From contig NZ_SGUC01000017.1 of NCBI RefSeq assembly GCF_005435165.1, positions 1 to 64,000 on the forward strand: a stretch of DNA of 64,000 nt. Direction: 5' to 3'. The stretch comes from Halorubrum sp. GN11_10-6_MGM (GTDB lineage: Archaea > Halobacteriota > Halobacteria > Halobacteriales > Haloferacaceae). Below the pieces are notes generated by a model. It was not told the DNA's origin. It made no database searches and saw only the letters and a list, made by a program, of their open reading frames with translations. Below are positions 4,545 through 27,141 of this stretch, piece by piece. How positions within the stretch are numbered: position 1 is the stretch's first letter; each line of letters starts with the position of its first letter. Made by a program: the position numbers and the translations under genes.

Positions 4545-4560
4545 TTTAGGTAGCCCTAAA
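4545..4560. promoter_or_regulatory. DtxR/IdeR-type operator between dehydrogenase operon and ferric permease
   Basis: TTTAGG-TAGC-CCTAAA is a perfect 6+6 palindrome with a 4-base spacer, the same core as at 2292-2307. It sits 8 bases upstream of the ATG of the dehydrogenase small subunit, between that start and a TATA-like element at about 4563-4570, and about 100 bases upstream of the plus-strand permease start. One bound repressor could control both directions. Confidence 0.7.
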
Positions 4561-4659: not shown

Positions 4660-6270
4660 ATGACCCTGCGAAACCGGCTCCGCGACCGCTTGACCGACGG
4701 CGACGACAGGCTCCCGCTCGGGCTGACGCTGCTCTGCGCGGCGATCGCCGCCACGCTCGTGTTCCCGCTGGCGTGGCTCGTCATCGAGGCGGTGGCGGTC
4801 GAGCGCGAGCGCGCGGTCGGCCTGCTCTTCAGCGCCGGGACCGCCGACGTGCTCGCCAACAGCCTCCTGCTGATGGCGGGCGTCACCGGCTTCTCGATCG
4901 CGATCGGCGTGCCCCTCGCGTACCTCACGGCTCGGACCGACCTCCCCTTCCGCCGGTTCTGGTCGGTCGCGGCCGCCCTCCCGCTCGTCGTGCCGAGCTA
5001 CGTCGGCGCCTTCTCGTTCGTCTCGGCGTTCGGCCCGCAGGGCGAGTTCCACGAGGTGCTCGCCCCGCTGGGCGTCGAGCGCGTCCCGGAGATCGGCGGG
5101 CTCTCCGGCTCGATCCTCGTCATCACGCTGTACACCTACCCGTACGTCTACCTAACGACCCGGGCGGCGCTCCTGTCGTTCGACACGACCCTCCTCGAAG
5201 CGGCTCGGACGCTGAACCACGGGCGGCTCGCGGCGTTCCGCCGCGTGACGCTCCCGACCATTCGCCCCGCGATCGCCGCCGGATCGCTGCTCGCGGCGCT
5301 GTACGCGGTCTCGGACTTCGGCACGCCGTCGATAATGCGGCTCCCGGTGTTCACTCGGCAGATATACGTCGAGTACAACGCGTTCGGTCGCGACTACGCC
5401 GCGCTGTTGTCGCTCCAACTGCTCGTCGTCGTCGTCCTCGTGCTGGCCTTGGAGTGGGCGGTCCGCTCGAACCGAGAGACGAGCGGCGACGACGCGGGCC
5501 GCACCGACGACCGGGTGTCGCTCGGGTGGCTTCGCTGGCCGGCGACGCTGCTCCCGGCCGGGGTGTCCGCGTTCGCCCTGTTGGTCCCGCTGTGGATTCT
5601 CGGACTGTGGCTGGTCAACTCCGAGGCCGGCCGCCGGCCCTCGCTCGCCTTCGAGCCGATACAGGTGCTCAACTCCGTGTCGGTCTCGGCGGCCGCCGCG
5701 GTCGTCGCCGCGCTCGCCGCGATCCCGATCGCGTACTTCGCCGCGAACCACGACTCGCCGCTCGCGGTCGTCTTCGAGCGGGCGACGTACGTCGGCTTCG
5801 CGGTGCCCGGCATCGTGCTGGCGCTCGCGCTGGTGTACTTCGGCTCCGGCTACGCGCCGTGGATCTACCAGACGCTCCCCCTCTTGGTGTTCGCGTACGT
5901 CGTCCGGTTCCTCCCGCAAGCGGTCGGGTCGACCCGGACGTCGATCCTTCAGGTCGACCGTCGGCTCGTCGAGGCCGGGCGCACCCTCGGCGAGTCGCCG
6001 ACCGGGGCGTTCAGACGCGTGACGTTCCCGCTCACGCGCTCGGGCATCGTCGCCGGGGCCGCACTCGTGTTCCTCACGACGATGAAGGAACTCCCGGTCA
6101 CGCTCGTGCTCCGCCCCACCGGGTTCGACACGATCGTCACGCAGATCTGGCGCGCACAGGAGACCGCGCTCTACCAGTACGCGGTGGTGCCGACGCTGAT
6201 CCTGCTGGCCATCTCCGGGCTCTCGATGGTCGTCCTCCTCGCGCAGGAGGACGGTCAAGAGGGACTGTGA
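4660..6270 (+). CDS. ferric iron-type ABC transporter permease (two fused permease domains)
   Basis: A 536-residue polytopic membrane protein of the FbpB/SfuB class, forming the channel of a binding-protein-dependent importer, usually for Fe(III). It contains two tandem permease modules; each carries a cytoplasmic EAA loop for the ATPase, near EAARTLNHGRLAAFRRVTLP in the first half and EAGRTLGESPTGAFRRVTFP in the second. About twelve helices are apparent. No binding protein or ATPase gene lies next to it, so those subunits must be encoded elsewhere. The iron assignment rests on family architecture plus the DtxR-type operator about 100 bases upstream. A TATA-like CTTATAT at about 4564-4570 implies a leader of roughly 65 bases. 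Confidence 0.88.
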   Translation: MTLRNRLRDRLTDGDDRLPLGLTLLCAAIAATLVFPLAWLVIEAVAVERERAVGLLFSAGTADVLANSLLLMAGVTGFSIAIGVPLAYLTARTDLPFRRFWSVAAALPLVVPSYVGAFSFVSAFGPQGEFHEVLAPLGVERVPEIGGLSGSILVITLYTYPYVYLTTRAALLSFDTTLLEAARTLNHGRLAAFRRVTLPTIRPAIAAGSLLAALYAVSDFGTPSIMRLPVFTRQIYVEYNAFGRDYAALLSLQLLVVVVLVLALEWAVRSNRETSGDDAGRTDDRVSLGWLRWPATLLPAGVSAFALLVPLWILGLWLVNSEAGRRPSLAFEPIQVLNSVSVSAAAAVVAALAAIPIAYFAANHDSPLAVVFERATYVGFAVPGIVLALALVYFGSGYAPWIYQTLPLLVFAYVVRFLPQAVGSTRTSILQVDRRLVEAGRTLGESPTGAFRRVTFPLTRSGIVAGAALVFLTTMKELPVTLVLRPTGFDTIVTQIWRAQETALYQYAVVPTLILLAISGLSMVVLLAQEDGQEGL

Positions 6271-21008: not shown

Positions 21009-21083
21009 GCCGGCGAGACGGCCGCTTCCGGCCGTATCGATAGGTCAAAGCTTACTTACACGCACGCGACCGTATTCAGGATA

Positions 21084-22334
21084 ATGAGTAGCGACGCACA
21101 GGAGGCGAACGAGGACCGCCGGAAGTACGAGTTCCGCAAGGTCATCGAGGAGCTCAAAGACTACGAGGGCTCCGGCACCCAGCTCGTCACCATCTACATC
21201 CCCGAAGAGAGGCAGATCTCCGACGTGGTCGCTCACGTCACCCAGGAGCACAGCGAGGCGTCGAACATCAAGTCGAAGCAGACTCGGACAGCCGTCCAAG
21301 ACGCGCTCACGTCGATCAAAGACCGGCTGCGCTACTACGACACGTTCCCGCCCGAGAACGGGATCGTGATCTTCTCCGGCGCGATCGACAGCGGCGGCGG
21401 GCAGACGGACATGGTCACCCGGACGCTGGAGTCGCCCCCGCAGCCCGTCGAGTCGTTCCGGTACCACTGCGACTCGGAGTTCCTCACCGAGCCGCTCGAA
21501 CACATGCTCGAAGACACCGGGCTGTTCGGGCTCATCGTCTTGGACCGCCGCGAGGCCAACGTCGGCTGGCTGAAGGGGAAACGCGTCGAGCCCGTCAAGT
21601 CCGCCTCCTCGCTCGTCCCCGGCAAACAGCGGAAGGGGGGGCAGTCCGCACAGCGGTTCGCCCGTCTGCGCCTCGAAGCGATCGACAACTTCTATCAGGA
21701 GGTCGCGGGGATGGCCAACGACCTGTTCGTCGACAAGCGCCACGAGCTCGACGGCATCCTGGTCGGCGGCCCCTCGCCGACGAAAGACGAGTTCCTCGAC
21801 GGCGACTACCTCCACCACGAGCTCCAGGACAAGGTGCTCGGCAAGTTCGACGTCGCGTACACCGACGAGTCCGGGCTGAAGGACCTCGTCGACGCGGGGC
21901 AGGAGGCGCTCGCCGACCAGGAGATCGTTCAGGACAAAAACGACATGGAGGAGTTCTTCGAGAAGCTCAACACCGGCCAGGAGGCCACCTACGGCTTCGA
22001 TCAGACCCGCCGGAACCTGATCATGGGCTCCGTCGACCGCCTGCTCATCTCCGAGGACCTCCGCTCGGACGTCGTCGTCTACGACTGTCCGAACGACCAC
22101 GAGGAGTACGAGGTGGTCGACGCCCGCCACTCGACGCCCGACCACGAGTGTAGCGAGTGCGGCGAGACGGCCGCGGTCGAGGAGCGCGAGGACGTCATCG
22201 AACACCTGATGACCATCGCCGAGCAGCGGGGCACCGAGACGCGGTTCATCTCGACCGACTTCGAGAAGGGCGAGCAGCTGCTCGACGCCTTCGGCGGTAT
22301 CGCCGGGATTCTGCGGTACTCGACCGGCGTCTAA
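21084..22334 (+). CDS. prf1: peptide chain release factor aRF1
   Basis: A 416-residue archaeal release factor that recognises all three stop codons and triggers peptidyl-tRNA hydrolysis. The stop-codon reading motif NIKS occurs in SNIKSKQTR, the catalytic GGQ in RKGGQSAQRFARLR, and a C-terminal mini-zinc-ribbon in YDCPNDHEEY...HECSECGE. The start is fixed by ATG 21084, about 27 bases after a TATA-like CTTACTTAC. Length and domain order are standard. Its 3' end faces the frameshifted DtxR-family gene on the other strand. Confidence 0.97.
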   Translation: MSSDAQEANEDRRKYEFRKVIEELKDYEGSGTQLVTIYIPEERQISDVVAHVTQEHSEASNIKSKQTRTAVQDALTSIKDRLRYYDTFPPENGIVIFSGAIDSGGGQTDMVTRTLESPPQPVESFRYHCDSEFLTEPLEHMLEDTGLFGLIVLDRREANVGWLKGKRVEPVKSASSLVPGKQRKGGQSAQRFARLRLEAIDNFYQEVAGMANDLFVDKRHELDGILVGGPSPTKDEFLDGDYLHHELQDKVLGKFDVAYTDESGLKDLVDAGQEALADQEIVQDKNDMEEFFEKLNTGQEATYGFDQTRRNLIMGSVDRLLISEDLRSDVVVYDCPNDHEEYEVVDARHSTPDHECSECGETAAVEEREDVIEHLMTIAEQRGTETRFISTDFEKGEQLLDAFGGIAGILRYSTGV

Positions 22335-22366
22335 AACGATTCGCTGACGGCTTTCCACGACCGCTC

Positions 22367-22811
22367 TTACTGCTGTTCCGGCTCGACCGGTGCCGCCGCG
22401 ACCTCCAGACACGCGCAGGCGTCCGTCTCGGGGTCGAAGCAGTCCGGGCACTCCGGCTGGCGGTCGATGATGGTGTCGAGCCGCTCGGCGACCGTGTCGT
22501 CGATGACGGCCTCCAGCTCCCGGGCTTCCGCCTGGAAGTCCTCGACCGCGAGGACGTTCGCGAGGAAGCGCTCGATGATACAGTAGGTCTGGAGCGCGTC
22601 GCGGGCGCGAACGATAACCGTCGTCGGTCAGCTTGACGCCCTTGTACTTCTCGTGTTCGGCGAGCCCCCGCTCTTCGAGCTTGCCGATCATCTCGTTGGC
22701 GCTGGCCGGGCTGACGCCGAGCGCGTCGGCTATCGACCCGGTCGAGGCGGGACCGTCTTCTTCGTCCTGTACGACGTATATCGTCTTGAGGTACTGGTCT
22801 GCGGTGTTCAC
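22367..22811 (-). pseudogene. DtxR-family metal-dependent regulator with a frameshift
   Basis: The N-terminal winged helix is read from GTG 22811 (starting MNTADQYLKTIYVVQ, then TGSIADALGVSPASANEMIG, ending KLTDDGYR). The dimerisation/metal domain continues in the next frame (RDALQTYCIIERFLANVLAV, then a C-terminal CPDCFDPETDACAC) and stops at 22367-22369. The total is 445 bases, one base too many; dropping one of the two A at 22610-22611 restores a continuous protein of about 147 residues. The relatives I recall are the SirR/Idr repressors of iron, manganese or zinc genes. At the first metal-ligand position, where MntR has Asp8 or DtxR Met10, this protein has Gln6. It lies downstream of sufCBD and a ferritin-like gene. 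Either a recent mutation, a sequencing error or programmed shifting could explain the break. Confidence 0.8.
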
Positions 22812-22854: not shown

Positions 22855-23343
22855 TCATCGGCGCTCCATGACCTCCGTGACTTCCCGTACGCCCTCGGCC
22901 TCCTCGTCGCGGATCGCCGTCAGGGTCGCGATCAACTCCTCGCGGTCGATCGAGAACGTCGCGTCGGAGCCCTCGATCGCCTCGATGAGGTCGTCGTAGA
23001 ACTTGTACGCCGTCTCCTCGTTGCACAGCTGGTCGTACAGCACGTCGTCGAAATCCTCCGGCCGCGTCCGCCCGTAGCGGGCGTCGACCAGCGACTCGAT
23101 CTCGTCGAACGGGACGCTGTCGACGCCGAGCCCCTCGATGAGCGCTTCGAGCCGCTCGCGGTGGTCGGCCGACTCCTCGGCGGCGTCCGCGAGCAGCGCC
23201 TCCACCTCCTCGTCGAGCTCGGCGTCCAGCTGCTGGTAGTGGCGGTGCGTTCGCGCTTCGACGACCTCCTCGAGCACGATTCCGATCTGGAGCAGCCGCG
23301 CGAGCTGGTCGTCGGAGGCGACCCGCTGGCTCACGCTCACCGC
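22855..23343 (-). CDS. ferritin-like domain protein
   Basis: A 162-residue acidic, fully helical protein with Glu/His patterns of a ferritin-like four-helix bundle: GIVLEEVVEARTHRHY, EESADHRERLEALIE, EETAYKFYDDLIEAI and RDEEAEGVREVTEVMERR. These could form a di-iron or iron-storage site. I chose the GTG at 23343 (MSVSQRVASDD); other GTGs lie 6 codons upstream and 2 downstream. It lies after sufD and 44 bases before the broken DtxR-family gene, so it fits an iron or iron-sulfur maintenance unit. Its enzymatic role is not known. Confidence 0.75.
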   Translation of the reverse strand, partial: AVSVSQRVASDDQLARLLQIGIVLEEVVEARTHRHYQQLDAELDEEVEALLADAAEESADHRERLEALIEGLGVDSVPFDEIESLVDARYGRTRPEDFDDVLYDQLCNEETAYKFYDDLIEAIEGSDATFSIDREELIATLTAIRDEEAEGVREVTEVMERR

Positions 23344-23494
23344 GACCACCCGAGACGGCACGAGACGCGGGTTCGCATACCCCGGACTCGGGCGTCGTCG
23401 GTCTTAAGCCGTTCCCCTCGCGCGCCGGTCGCTCCGCGGGCGGGTCGGGGCCGGAAAAATCCGTTCGGCGGGCGAACCGCGAGCGCCGACCGGT

Positions 23495-24733
23495 CTACTG
23501 GAGGCGCTCGAAGACGAGTTCCTCGACGTCGTCGCGGAACTCGTCGACCGCGATCTCCTCTAAGACGGGCACGAAGAAGCCCTCGACGAGCATATTCCGG
23601 GCCGTCCGCGAGTCGATAGAGCGGCTCTCGAGGTAGAACAGGTCCTCGGCGTCGACCTGTCCGACCGTCGCCGAGTGGGACGCCTCGGTGTCGTGGTTGT
23701 GGATGATGAGCTTCGGCGACGCGTCCGCCTCGGCCTCGTCCGACAGCATCAGCGTGTTCTCGCGCTGGTAGCTGGAGGTGTTCCACGCGTCCTCGCCGAC
23801 GTCCTGAACGCCCTCGTAGACGGAGCGGGCGACGTCGTCGAGCACGCCGCGGGTGACCAGGTCGGCGGTCGTCTGCTCGGCCTGGTGCCACACGCGGGCG
23901 TTGATGTCGAAGTGCTGGTCGTCCGTCCCGAAGAACGTCCCGACGATCTGGCTCTCGGAGCCGTCGCCGTTGAGCTCGGTCTCGATGTCGGAGCGGGTGA
24001 GCTTCGAGCCGAAGTTGCTCTCGATCCAGTCGACCGTCGCGTACGTGTCCGTCACGCCGCGCTTCAGCGAGTAGGTGTACGCGTCGGAATCGAGGTTCTG
24101 GAGCGAGCCGAACTGGACGTTCGCGTTCTCGCCCGCGACGACCTCGACGAGGTTCGAGAAGTACCGGTCGCCGTCGACCGTTCCCGAGGCGGCGGCCTCG
24201 CCCTCGCCGTCACCCGACGTGATCGATTCGAGGATCGTCACCGACGACGACTCCTCGGCGACGACGAGCGTCTGGCTGAACAGCGAGCGGGAGTTCATCT
24301 CCGCGCGCACCGTCACGTCCTCGACGTCGACGCCCTCGGGGACGTAGACGAACGTGCCGGTGGTGAACAGCGCGACCGAAAGCGCCGTGAGGTAGTTGTG
24401 TTCGGGGTCGAGGACGGAGCCGAAGTTCGCCTCGATCACGTCGCCGTACTCGGCGAGCGCCTCGGTGAACGGGAGGACGACGACCTCGTCGTCGCCCGCG
24501 GTCCGCTCGGTCTCGTCCGACTGGTTCAGCGGGTCGACGAGCGCCTCGAAGTCGAGCGCCTCCAGGTCGGTCCAGCGGCGCCCCGGCGTCTGGATGACGT
24601 CAGGGAGATCCGCCGTCTCCAGCGCGGACAGCGCGTTCAGGCGGGTTTCGAGGAGCCACTCGGGCTCGTCGCGTTCGTCGGCGATGCGTCGTACCGTGTC
24701 CTCCGAGAGGCTCTCGATTGCTTGCGTGCTCAT
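23495..24733 (-). CDS. sufD: Fe-S cluster assembly protein SufD
   Basis: A 412-residue SufB/SufD-family scaffold component. It has the N-terminal helical region with EPEWLLETRLNAL and the long beta-helix core (YVPEGVDVEDVTVRAEMNS onwards), with the C-terminal HSATVGQVDAEDLFYLESR and RNMLVEGFFVPVLEEI. His in NHDTEASHSATVG matches the family His involved in cluster assembly. It starts 1 base after the sufB stop, so translation is probably coupled. The SufBCD complex builds Fe-S clusters in the cytosol using ATP from SufC; no SufS or SufE homologue is in the window. Confidence 0.95.
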   Translation of the reverse strand: MSTQAIESLSEDTVRRIADERDEPEWLLETRLNALSALETADLPDVIQTPGRRWTDLEALDFEALVDPLNQSDETERTAGDDEVVVLPFTEALAEYGDVIEANFGSVLDPEHNYLTALSVALFTTGTFVYVPEGVDVEDVTVRAEMNSRSLFSQTLVVAEESSSVTILESITSGDGEGEAAASGTVDGDRYFSNLVEVVAGENANVQFGSLQNLDSDAYTYSLKRGVTDTYATVDWIESNFGSKLTRSDIETELNGDGSESQIVGTFFGTDDQHFDINARVWHQAEQTTADLVTRGVLDDVARSVYEGVQDVGEDAWNTSSYQRENTLMLSDEAEADASPKLIIHNHDTEASHSATVGQVDAEDLFYLESRSIDSRTARNMLVEGFFVPVLEEIAVDEFRDDVEELVFERLQ

Positions 24734-24734
24734 G

Positions 24735-26165
24735 TTATCCGAGCGAACCCTCCATCTCCAGCTCGACGAGCCGGTTCAGCTCGACGGCGTACTCGATCGG
24801 CAGCTCCTCCGTGATCGGCTCGATGAACCCTGAGACGATCATCTGTTTCGCGTCGTCGTCGTCGAGACCGCGCGACTGGAGGTAGAAGATGTCCTCGTCG
24901 CCGATCTTGCCGACGGTCGCCTCGTGGGCGACGTCGACCTTCGACTCGTTGATCTCCATGTACGGCATCGTGTCCGACGTCGACTCGTTGTCGAACATCA
25001 GCGCGTCGCACTCCACGGCGGTCGAGGAGTTCTCGGCGCCGTCCGCGATGTGGACGAGCCCGCGGTAGTTGGTGCGGCCGCCGTCCTTCGCGATCGACTT
25101 CGACTCGACGGTGGACTTCGTGTTCGGCGCGTTGTGGTACACCTTCGCGCCGGTGTCGATGTCCTGCCCCTCGCCCGCGAAGGCGATAGTAATGTGGTTG
25201 TCGGAGGCGCCGCGACCCTTCAGGATCGTCGACGGGTACAGCATCGTCGCCTTCGACCCCATCGAGCCGGAGATCCACTCCATGCGCCCGCCCTTCTCGG
25301 CGATTGCGCGCTTGGTGTTGAGGTTGTACGTGTTCTTCGACCAGTTCTGGACGGTCGAGTACTGGACGTGAGCGTCCTCGCCGACGAACACTTCTACGCC
25401 GCCGGAGTGGAGGTTAAACGCCGAGTACTTCGGCGCCGAACAGCCCTCGATGTAGTGGACCTCGGAGCCCTCCTCGGCGATGATGAGCGTGTGCTCGAAC
25501 TGGCCCATCCCCTCGGAGTTCATCCGGAAGTACGCCTGGACGGGCATCTCGACCGTGGTGTTCTCCGGCACGTAGACGAACGAGCCGCCGGACCAGATGG
25601 CGCCGTGAAGCGCCGCGAACTTGTTGTCGCTCGGGGGGACGCACTTCGTCATGAAGTGCTCGCGGACGATCTCCTCGTGCTCTTGGACCGCCTTGTCCAT
25701 GTCACAGAAGATGACGCCCTTCTCCTCCCAGCGCTCCTGCATGTTCTGGTAGACGATCTCGGACTCGTACTGCGCGCCGACGCCCGAGAGCGCGTTCTTC
25801 TCCGCCTCCGGAATGCCGAGCTTGTCGAAGGTGTCCTGGATCTCCTCCGGGAGGTCCTCCCAGCTCTCGGCGCCGCCGCGGGTCTCGATGTCCGGGCGGA
25901 TGTACGGCACGATCTCGTCGATGTCGACTTCCGAGAGATCCGGCTGGCCGGGCCAGTCGGTCGGCATCGGCATCTCCTGGAACTGCTCTAACGCGCGGAG
26001 GCGGCGCTCCAGCATCCACTCCGGCTCGTCTTTGTCCTCCGAGATGACGCGGACCGTCTCCTCGGTGAGGCCCTTCTCGCTTTTGAAGGCGGAGTTCTCC
26101 TCCTTCTTGAACTCGAAGCGGGCCTCGGTGTCTGTCTCCTTGAGGTCGTCCTGTTGTGAACTCAT
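24735..26165 (-). CDS. sufB: Fe-S cluster assembly protein SufB
   Basis: A 476-residue SufB, the main scaffold on which Fe-S clusters form. The N-terminal SufB signature region has EPEWMLERRLRALEQF and GVGAQYESEIVYQ; the beta-helix core holds IEGCSAPKYSAFNLHSGGVE, with Cys in the EGCSAP motif, and WSKNTYNLNTKRAIAE. The C-terminal half has the family EATVGKIGDEDIFYLQSRG. It lies between sufC and sufD in the order C-B-D on the minus strand. A leading acidic segment precedes the core, typical of haloarchaea. Confidence 0.96.
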   Translation of the reverse strand: MSSQQDDLKETDTEARFEFKKEENSAFKSEKGLTEETVRVISEDKDEPEWMLERRLRALEQFQEMPMPTDWPGQPDLSEVDIDEIVPYIRPDIETRGGAESWEDLPEEIQDTFDKLGIPEAEKNALSGVGAQYESEIVYQNMQERWEEKGVIFCDMDKAVQEHEEIVREHFMTKCVPPSDNKFAALHGAIWSGGSFVYVPENTTVEMPVQAYFRMNSEGMGQFEHTLIIAEEGSEVHYIEGCSAPKYSAFNLHSGGVEVFVGEDAHVQYSTVQNWSKNTYNLNTKRAIAEKGGRMEWISGSMGSKATMLYPSTILKGRGASDNHITIAFAGEGQDIDTGAKVYHNAPNTKSTVESKSIAKDGGRTNYRGLVHIADGAENSSTAVECDALMFDNESTSDTMPYMEINESKVDVAHEATVGKIGDEDIFYLQSRGLDDDDAKQMIVSGFIEPITEELPIEYAVELNRLVELEMEGSLG

Positions 26166-26217: not shown

Positions 26218-27141
26218 TTACGCCGCCTCGAAGGCGTCCTCGCGGACCCAGTCGTACCCCTCGTCTTCGAGCTTCTCGGCGAGCTCCGCGCCGCCGCTCT
26301 TGACGACCTCGCCGTCCAGCATGACGTGGACGTGGTCGGGCTCGACGTAGTCGAGGATGCGCTGGTAGTGGGTGATCTGGAGGATGCCCGTGCCCTGCTC
26401 GTCGCGGAGCGCGTTGATCCCCTTCGAGACGTCCTTCAGGCGGTCGATGTCGAGCCCGGAGTCGATCTCGTCGAGCACGGCGACGCTCGGCTCCAACATC
26501 GCGGCCTGGAGGACCTCGTTCTGCTTCTTCTCGCCGCCGGAGAAGCCGGCGTTGAGGTAGCGCTGCATGAACTTCTCGTCCATGTCGAGCAGCTCCATCT
26601 TCTCCGAGAGGATCTCCTGGAACTCGGCGACGCCGATCTCGCCGTCGTCCGCCGGGCCCTCCATCGGGGAGGTCTCGTAACCCTCGTCCTCGTCGTCGTC
26701 CGCTTCGGCCTCCGCCTCCTCCTCGTCCTCGAACAGCTCCTCGCGCTCGTCCGCCTTCGCGTTGAGGGCCTGGCGGAGGAAGTTCGTCATGGTGACGCCC
26801 TCAATCTCGGCGGGATACTGGAAGCCGAGGAAGATGCCGAGCGCGGCGCGCTCGTTCGGCTCCAGCTCCAGCAGCTCCCAGTGGTAGTCGTCGTCGTCGA
26901 GGTCGACGTCGACGTCGTCGACGTCCGCCTCGTCCAAGTGGAGGGAGATCGACCCGTCGGTCACCTCGTAGGCCGGGTGGCCGGCGATCACCTTCGCCAG
27001 CGTCGACTTCCCGGAGCCGTTGGGACCCATCAGCGCGTGGATATCCCCGGACTCGACGGTCAGGTCGACGCCGCGAAGGATCCGTTCACCGCCCTCTTCG
27101 GCCACTCGTGCCCGAAGGTCGTTGATTTCGAGAGTTGCCAT
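26218..27141 (-). CDS. sufC: Fe-S cluster assembly ATPase SufC, with acidic insertions
   Basis: A 307-residue ABC-type ATPase driving SufBCD. Walker A is GPNGSGKSTLAKV near residue 39, the signature is AGFSGGEKKQNEVL, Walker B is SVAVLDEIDSGLDID, and the H-loop is LQITHYQR. It is about 50 residues longer than typical SufC because of two acidic segments: residues 69-86 (Asp-rich) and about 131-168 (Glu/Asp-rich, ending at MEGPADDGEIG). The ATG at 27141 leads the suf operon; the upstream gap to polB is 145 bases. Confidence 0.96.
   Translation of the reverse strand: MATLEINDLRARVAEEGGERILRGVDLTVESGDIHALMGPNGSGKSTLAKVIAGHPAYEVTDGSISLHLDEADVDDVDVDLDDDDYHWELLELEPNERAALGIFLGFQYPAEIEGVTMTNFLRQALNAKADEREELFEDEEEAEAEADDDEDEGYETSPMEGPADDGEIGVAEFQEILSEKMELLDMDEKFMQRYLNAGFSGGEKKQNEVLQAAMLEPSVAVLDEIDSGLDIDRLKDVSKGINALRDEQGTGILQITHYQRILDYVEPDHVHVMLDGEVVKSGGAELAEKLEDEGYDWVREDAFEAA

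Follow-up and report, generated by a model that had tools for sequence, protein, structure and literature searches.

Gene content and organization of the locus

The window analyzed here is a stretch of 64,000 nucleotides that forms part of contig C78 (67,228 bases) of a draft Halorubrum genome (G000), which comprises 3,321,212 bases in 200 contigs and is 99.63% complete. On its minus strand, sufC-type, sufB-type, sufD-type, ferritin/rubrerythrin-like, and DtxR-type genes follow one another in that order, and the release factor aRF1 gene (21084..22334, plus strand; TIGR03676, 542.8 bits) is convergent to the last of them. The sufC-type ATPase gene (26218..27138) was named from its own sequence, with an inferred start codon, while the sufB-type (24735..26165) and sufD-type (23495..24733) genes were recognized by profile matches to the SUFBD core. 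The ferritin/rubrerythrin-like gene (22855..23361) matched PF02915 with 21.7 bits, just below the cut-off of 22.8. A scan for terminators near the end of the DtxR-type gene, performed with a tool built for bacterial signals, found none.

Orthologs were collected as 109 loci, made up of 29 same-genus loci (L004-L032) and a further 80 (L033-L112); the two sets overlap, and 84 distinct proteins are represented. The ferritin/rubrerythrin-like gene was the immediate upstream neighbor of the DtxR-type gene in all 80 of the latter loci, and a sufD match was found upstream in 70 of them. Among the 10 loci without a sufD match, six (L086, L091, L097, L099, L102, and L109) have approximately 10 kb of upstream sequence and the other four have only 0.9-5.5 kb. 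The convergent aRF1 gene adjoins the DtxR-type gene in 34 of the 80 loci. The gene encodes a DtxR-type regulator of a common kind, conserved widely among haloarchaea, and closes a suf/ferritin-like cluster.

The DtxR-type gene (22367..22811, minus strand) begins with GTG at 22811 and ends at the normal stop codon at 22367-22369, which gives 445 bases, or 148 codons plus one base, and the frame is lost after codon 65. The head (22605..22811), in which the frame is intact, contains the winged-helix DNA-binding domain PF01325 (69.5 bits, cut-off 26), and its translation ends with KYKGVKLTDDG before running out of frame. The tail (22370..22615) lies in a different frame and holds the dimerization domain PF02742 (31.2 bits, cut-off 27; 35.3 bits in frame in the intact relative L004) together with a part containing four cysteines. 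Within the 86 codons of the tail's own frame there is no ATG, GTG, or TTG. The break creates a reading frame of 588 residues (21045..22811, minus strand), which crosses aRF1 in antisense and closes with a stop at 21045. A preliminary description had reported a DtxR-family gene beside suf broken by a single base, with family sequence retained in both halves. Both points were borne out, the first by the SufD and SufB genes upstream in the same orientation and a gene length of 3n+1, and the second by the separate passage of each half over its Pfam cut-off.

Position of the extra base

Comparison with every relative examined places the extra base in the pair 22616..22617, which reads AA on the plus strand and TT on the minus strand. 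This placement follows from the codon-level reading of the same-genus loci, since ATC comes directly after a Gly codon (GGN ATC) in 29 of 29, followed by GTN in 26 and by ATC or ATT in three; the window reads GGT-T-ATC-GTT at this point. Alignment with G025, a same-genus comparison genome in a 3-contig assembly, likewise opened a gap at 22617. Orthologs continue past the break point as GI(V/x)RA, with Ile at residue 66 in all but three of the 109 loci. The base had earlier been assigned to 22610-22611, approximately 6 bases away; its removal there would restore the frame but would leave Tyr-Arg where Ile66 is conserved.

Comparison with relatives

The gene was open in all 109 orthologous loci, which encode proteins of 142-151 residues. 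A search of 51 other same-genus genomes gave 48 with a match spanning the site, and every one of these lacked the extra base: at the site, 47 were one base shorter than the window and one was four bases shorter. The three genomes without a spanning match were G033 and G043, in which no ortholog was found, and G035, in which only bases 1-143 were matched; these are either incomplete or also without the ferritin-like neighbor. In G043 (94% complete), neither the DtxR ortholog nor the ferritin-like neighbor had a match, so the pair may have been lost together in that genome.

The tail showed no measurable decay. Its translation is identical to the G025 protein at 82 of 82 residues, and 18 of its 19 nucleotide differences from G025 fall at third codon positions. 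Relative to the 29 same-genus loci, the tail has two nucleotides private to the window genome, both at third positions, and the head has no private nucleotide; private amino-acid changes in the tail were absent in the same comparison. Judged from these alignments, the frame break is an event private to the window genome and very recent.

Survey of frame breaks in the assembly

Of the window genome, 541,615 bases (16%) were compared with 760,000 bases of G025, and 449,452 bases could be aligned. A codon model identified two in-gene single-base breaks, both of them insertions in the window genome, at 22617 and at approximately position 1605 of contig C70. The latter insertion stands beside a run of eight G, and codon-position bias also marks the window genome as the broken one. 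A third insertion, at approximately position 27234 of C70 (G3 to G4), was seen in the alignment and reading frames and did not pass the codon model. No in-gene single-base break was seen in G025 over the same stretch.

The codon model listed 12 rows; on visual inspection, all but 22617 and C70:1605 were assigned to gene junctions or extended clusters of gaps and left uncounted. Initial protein-based lists contained 14 candidates per direction, most of which were, by codon-position bias, stop-to-stop extensions into upstream sequence. A region of C20 near 38.6 kb with several indels and an uninformative site at C20:10315 were left out of the count. A stretch of approximately 240 bases in the same assembly (C70:12680-12923) matches G025 partially at about 60 positions and is probably a dispersed short repeat or a miniature transposable element.

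Origin of the frame break

We lean slightly toward a sequencing or assembly overcall, rather than a fresh mutation, as the source of the extra T (minus strand, 22616-22617), with the gene intact in the living strain. Base-call overcalls often fall in G runs, and we infer a technical rather than a biological cause because all three surveyed breaks are insertions in the window genome, two of them in G runs; the intact relatives and the undecayed tail were also counted in its favor. Against an overcall, the site is merely TT, with no long run, and only two or three breaks were found per 449 kb aligned, a rate so low that a generally bad assembly is no explanation. The tally of three insertions against none is, moreover, a small sample, and had a mutation arisen in the strain or during culture, it would leave exactly this picture.

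The alternative, that the strain itself acquired a one-base insertion very recently, either in nature or in culture, and so lost the regulator, is accorded a chance somewhat short of even. The event is clean and single, with both flanks conserved, and the undecayed tail fits a recent origin. The low background of such breaks in the assembly points the same way, as does the missing start codon in the tail frame (0/86), which leaves ordinary re-initiation unable to rescue the second half. Set against this, the gene is open in all 48 same-genus genomes with a match across the site, which indicates that its loss is not favored in the genus, and the breaks seen were all insertions in this assembly, with none in G025. 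The preliminary description had looked to intact relatives as evidence against the break; the relatives are indeed intact, but a mutation specific to this strain is not thereby refuted, because other species are uninformative about this strain's reads.

That description had offered a programmed shift as a third choice beside recent mutation and assembly error, and the latter two both survive. Production of the full protein through a +1 frameshift, whether programmed or tolerated, is very unlikely, because the relatives contain no conserved shift site. The sole point for it is the intactness of the two halves and their location in adjacent frames, but the base occurs in none of the 48 spanning same-genus genomes, the break occurs in none of the 109 loci, and GGT followed by ATC is also found unshifted in relatives; it was rejected since no relative shares the base. 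Nothing beyond the break itself speaks for an old pseudogene or for two separate genes, and their probability is close to nil: the former was ruled out by the third-position divergence (18 of 19 differences after the break) and the absence of private coding changes, the latter by the lack of a start codon in the tail frame, and relatives have one gene.

Predicted consequences and iron control

Were the base real, the ribosome would leave the frame after codon 65, before the dimerization domain, and would meet no stop for 1.3 kb, reading on through hundreds of codons to 21045. The product would be expected to carry a DNA-binding domain without its dimerization partner domain. Because the shifted frame is open to 21045, a message ending near the normal gene end may carry no stop codon, and with no ATG, GTG, or TTG in the tail frame, ordinary initiation would yield no separate dimerization part.

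The presence of iron-box operators elsewhere in the window, as described earlier, was confirmed to the extent that two iron-box-like palindromes, both perfect matches to TTAGGN4CCTAA, are located at 2293-2306 and 4546-4559; none was found in 100 shuffles. The box at 4546 lies 100 bases ahead of an ABC-permease gene (4660-6270, PF00528); a gene for a Gluconate_2-dh3 protein (PF13618) is next to the same box. The scan of the window found no TTAGGN4CCTAA site near the suf genes or the DtxR-type gene, so the positions of the boxes lend no support to the link that had been drawn between them and this regulator. In G025, five TTAGGN4CCTAA sites were noted in the stretch C1:1166606-1176120.

A second DtxR protein is intact at C120, with PF01325, PF02742, and FeoA domains and a readable canonical His/Glu pattern, and a weaker third match to the family, above the family cut-off, is present in C41. 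The suggestion that loss of the suf-linked regulator could change iron control is plausible, but the effect would be less direct than was stated, given that most of its canonical metal ligands are gone, that no box lies at suf or at the gene, and that the second DtxR protein is intact. As found, a one-base break confined to a single draft genome is of limited import, and the record may come to be annotated as missing a regulator that the cell has. The family-level observation is the more useful one: a widespread suf-linked regulator lacks most of the iron/manganese ligands of DtxR and has four invariant cysteines instead.

Metal ligands and cysteines of the suf-linked group

Like members of the DtxR/MntR family, the suf-linked gene encodes PF01325 and PF02742 in the same order, with the second domain out of frame in the window. 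An intact relative matched 33 PDB sequences at E values up to 0.01, IdeR, DtxR, MntR, SloR, and ScaR among them, and the best match was 5zr4 (3.5e-16). The metal ligands of DtxR are His79, Glu83, His98, Cys102, Glu105, and His106, and these positions were mapped onto the group through the alignments with the PDB matches. The residues found at the DtxR ligand positions across the 109 loci were Tyr (109/109), Glu (108/109), Arg, Gln, or Pro (mostly Arg), Glu (109/109), and Ala, Ser, Pro, or Thr. Unlike DtxR, the group has retained just the Glu pair among the six ligands and, unlike the FeoA-bearing DtxR proteins, its members are short and without a FeoA domain.

Cysteines 77, 121, 124, and 132 are invariant in all 109 loci (L004-L032 and L033-L112). 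With most of the DtxR ligands absent and these four cysteines invariant, the group is unlikely to have the Fe(II)/Mn(II) site typical of the family. Fold and domains uphold its membership in the DtxR family, and the residue patterns argue against a repressor of the canonical type that depends on Fe(II)/Mn(II). A cysteine-based, possibly Fe-S, sensor in the suf/ferritin-linked group is plausible from the same patterns. A structure was predicted for the protein of L033, an intact relative, from an alignment of 30 rows drawn from the 109 loci, L033 included. The model had a mean pLDDT of 73, with low confidence in the C-terminal half and values of approximately 45-50 in the cysteine part, too low to judge the proximity of the cysteines.

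A more specific proposal is speculative and, in our estimate, rather unlikely to hold as a whole: the suf/ferritin-linked DtxR-fold regulators of haloarchaea may have lost their Fe(II)/Mn(II) sites and may bind an Fe-S cluster, or a metal ion through Cys, with C77 and C121-x2-C124-x7-C132. They would thereby signal the Fe-S state of the cell to the suf and ferritin-like genes and would be an archaeal equivalent of SufR on a DtxR fold. The window strain would then be a natural knock-out if the extra base is real. If the cysteines do hold an Fe-S cluster, the group would provide a testable sensor of Fe-S status in archaea. A literature search found no paper on Fe-S or cysteine sensing by haloarchaeal DtxR-type regulators, which is no proof of novelty because the main studies of TroR and of archaeal DtxR regulons were outside its coverage.

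Comparison with known regulators

Haloferax volcanii TroR (HVO_0863) is reportedly a regulator of iron homeostasis, and its gene presumably sits just after the sufCBD genes in that organism. Based on this gene order, the DtxR-type gene of the window can probably be regarded as a candidate ortholog of TroR. Published primers flanking HVO_0863 had no match, with up to three mismatches allowed, in locus L111 of one related species, Haloferax massiliensis. PMC11349517 gives the DtxR proteins of Haloferax volcanii as Idr, SirR, and TroR.

Among Fe-S regulators, SufR is mentioned in PMC11218638. SufR and IscR belong to the ArsR-type and Rrf2 families. The DtxR-type protein belongs to a different family, and an Fe-S cluster in it is hypothetical. 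By analogy only, it resembles SufR and IscR, the bacterial Fe-S-sensing repressors of suf and isc, in its place beside suf and in its conserved cysteines.
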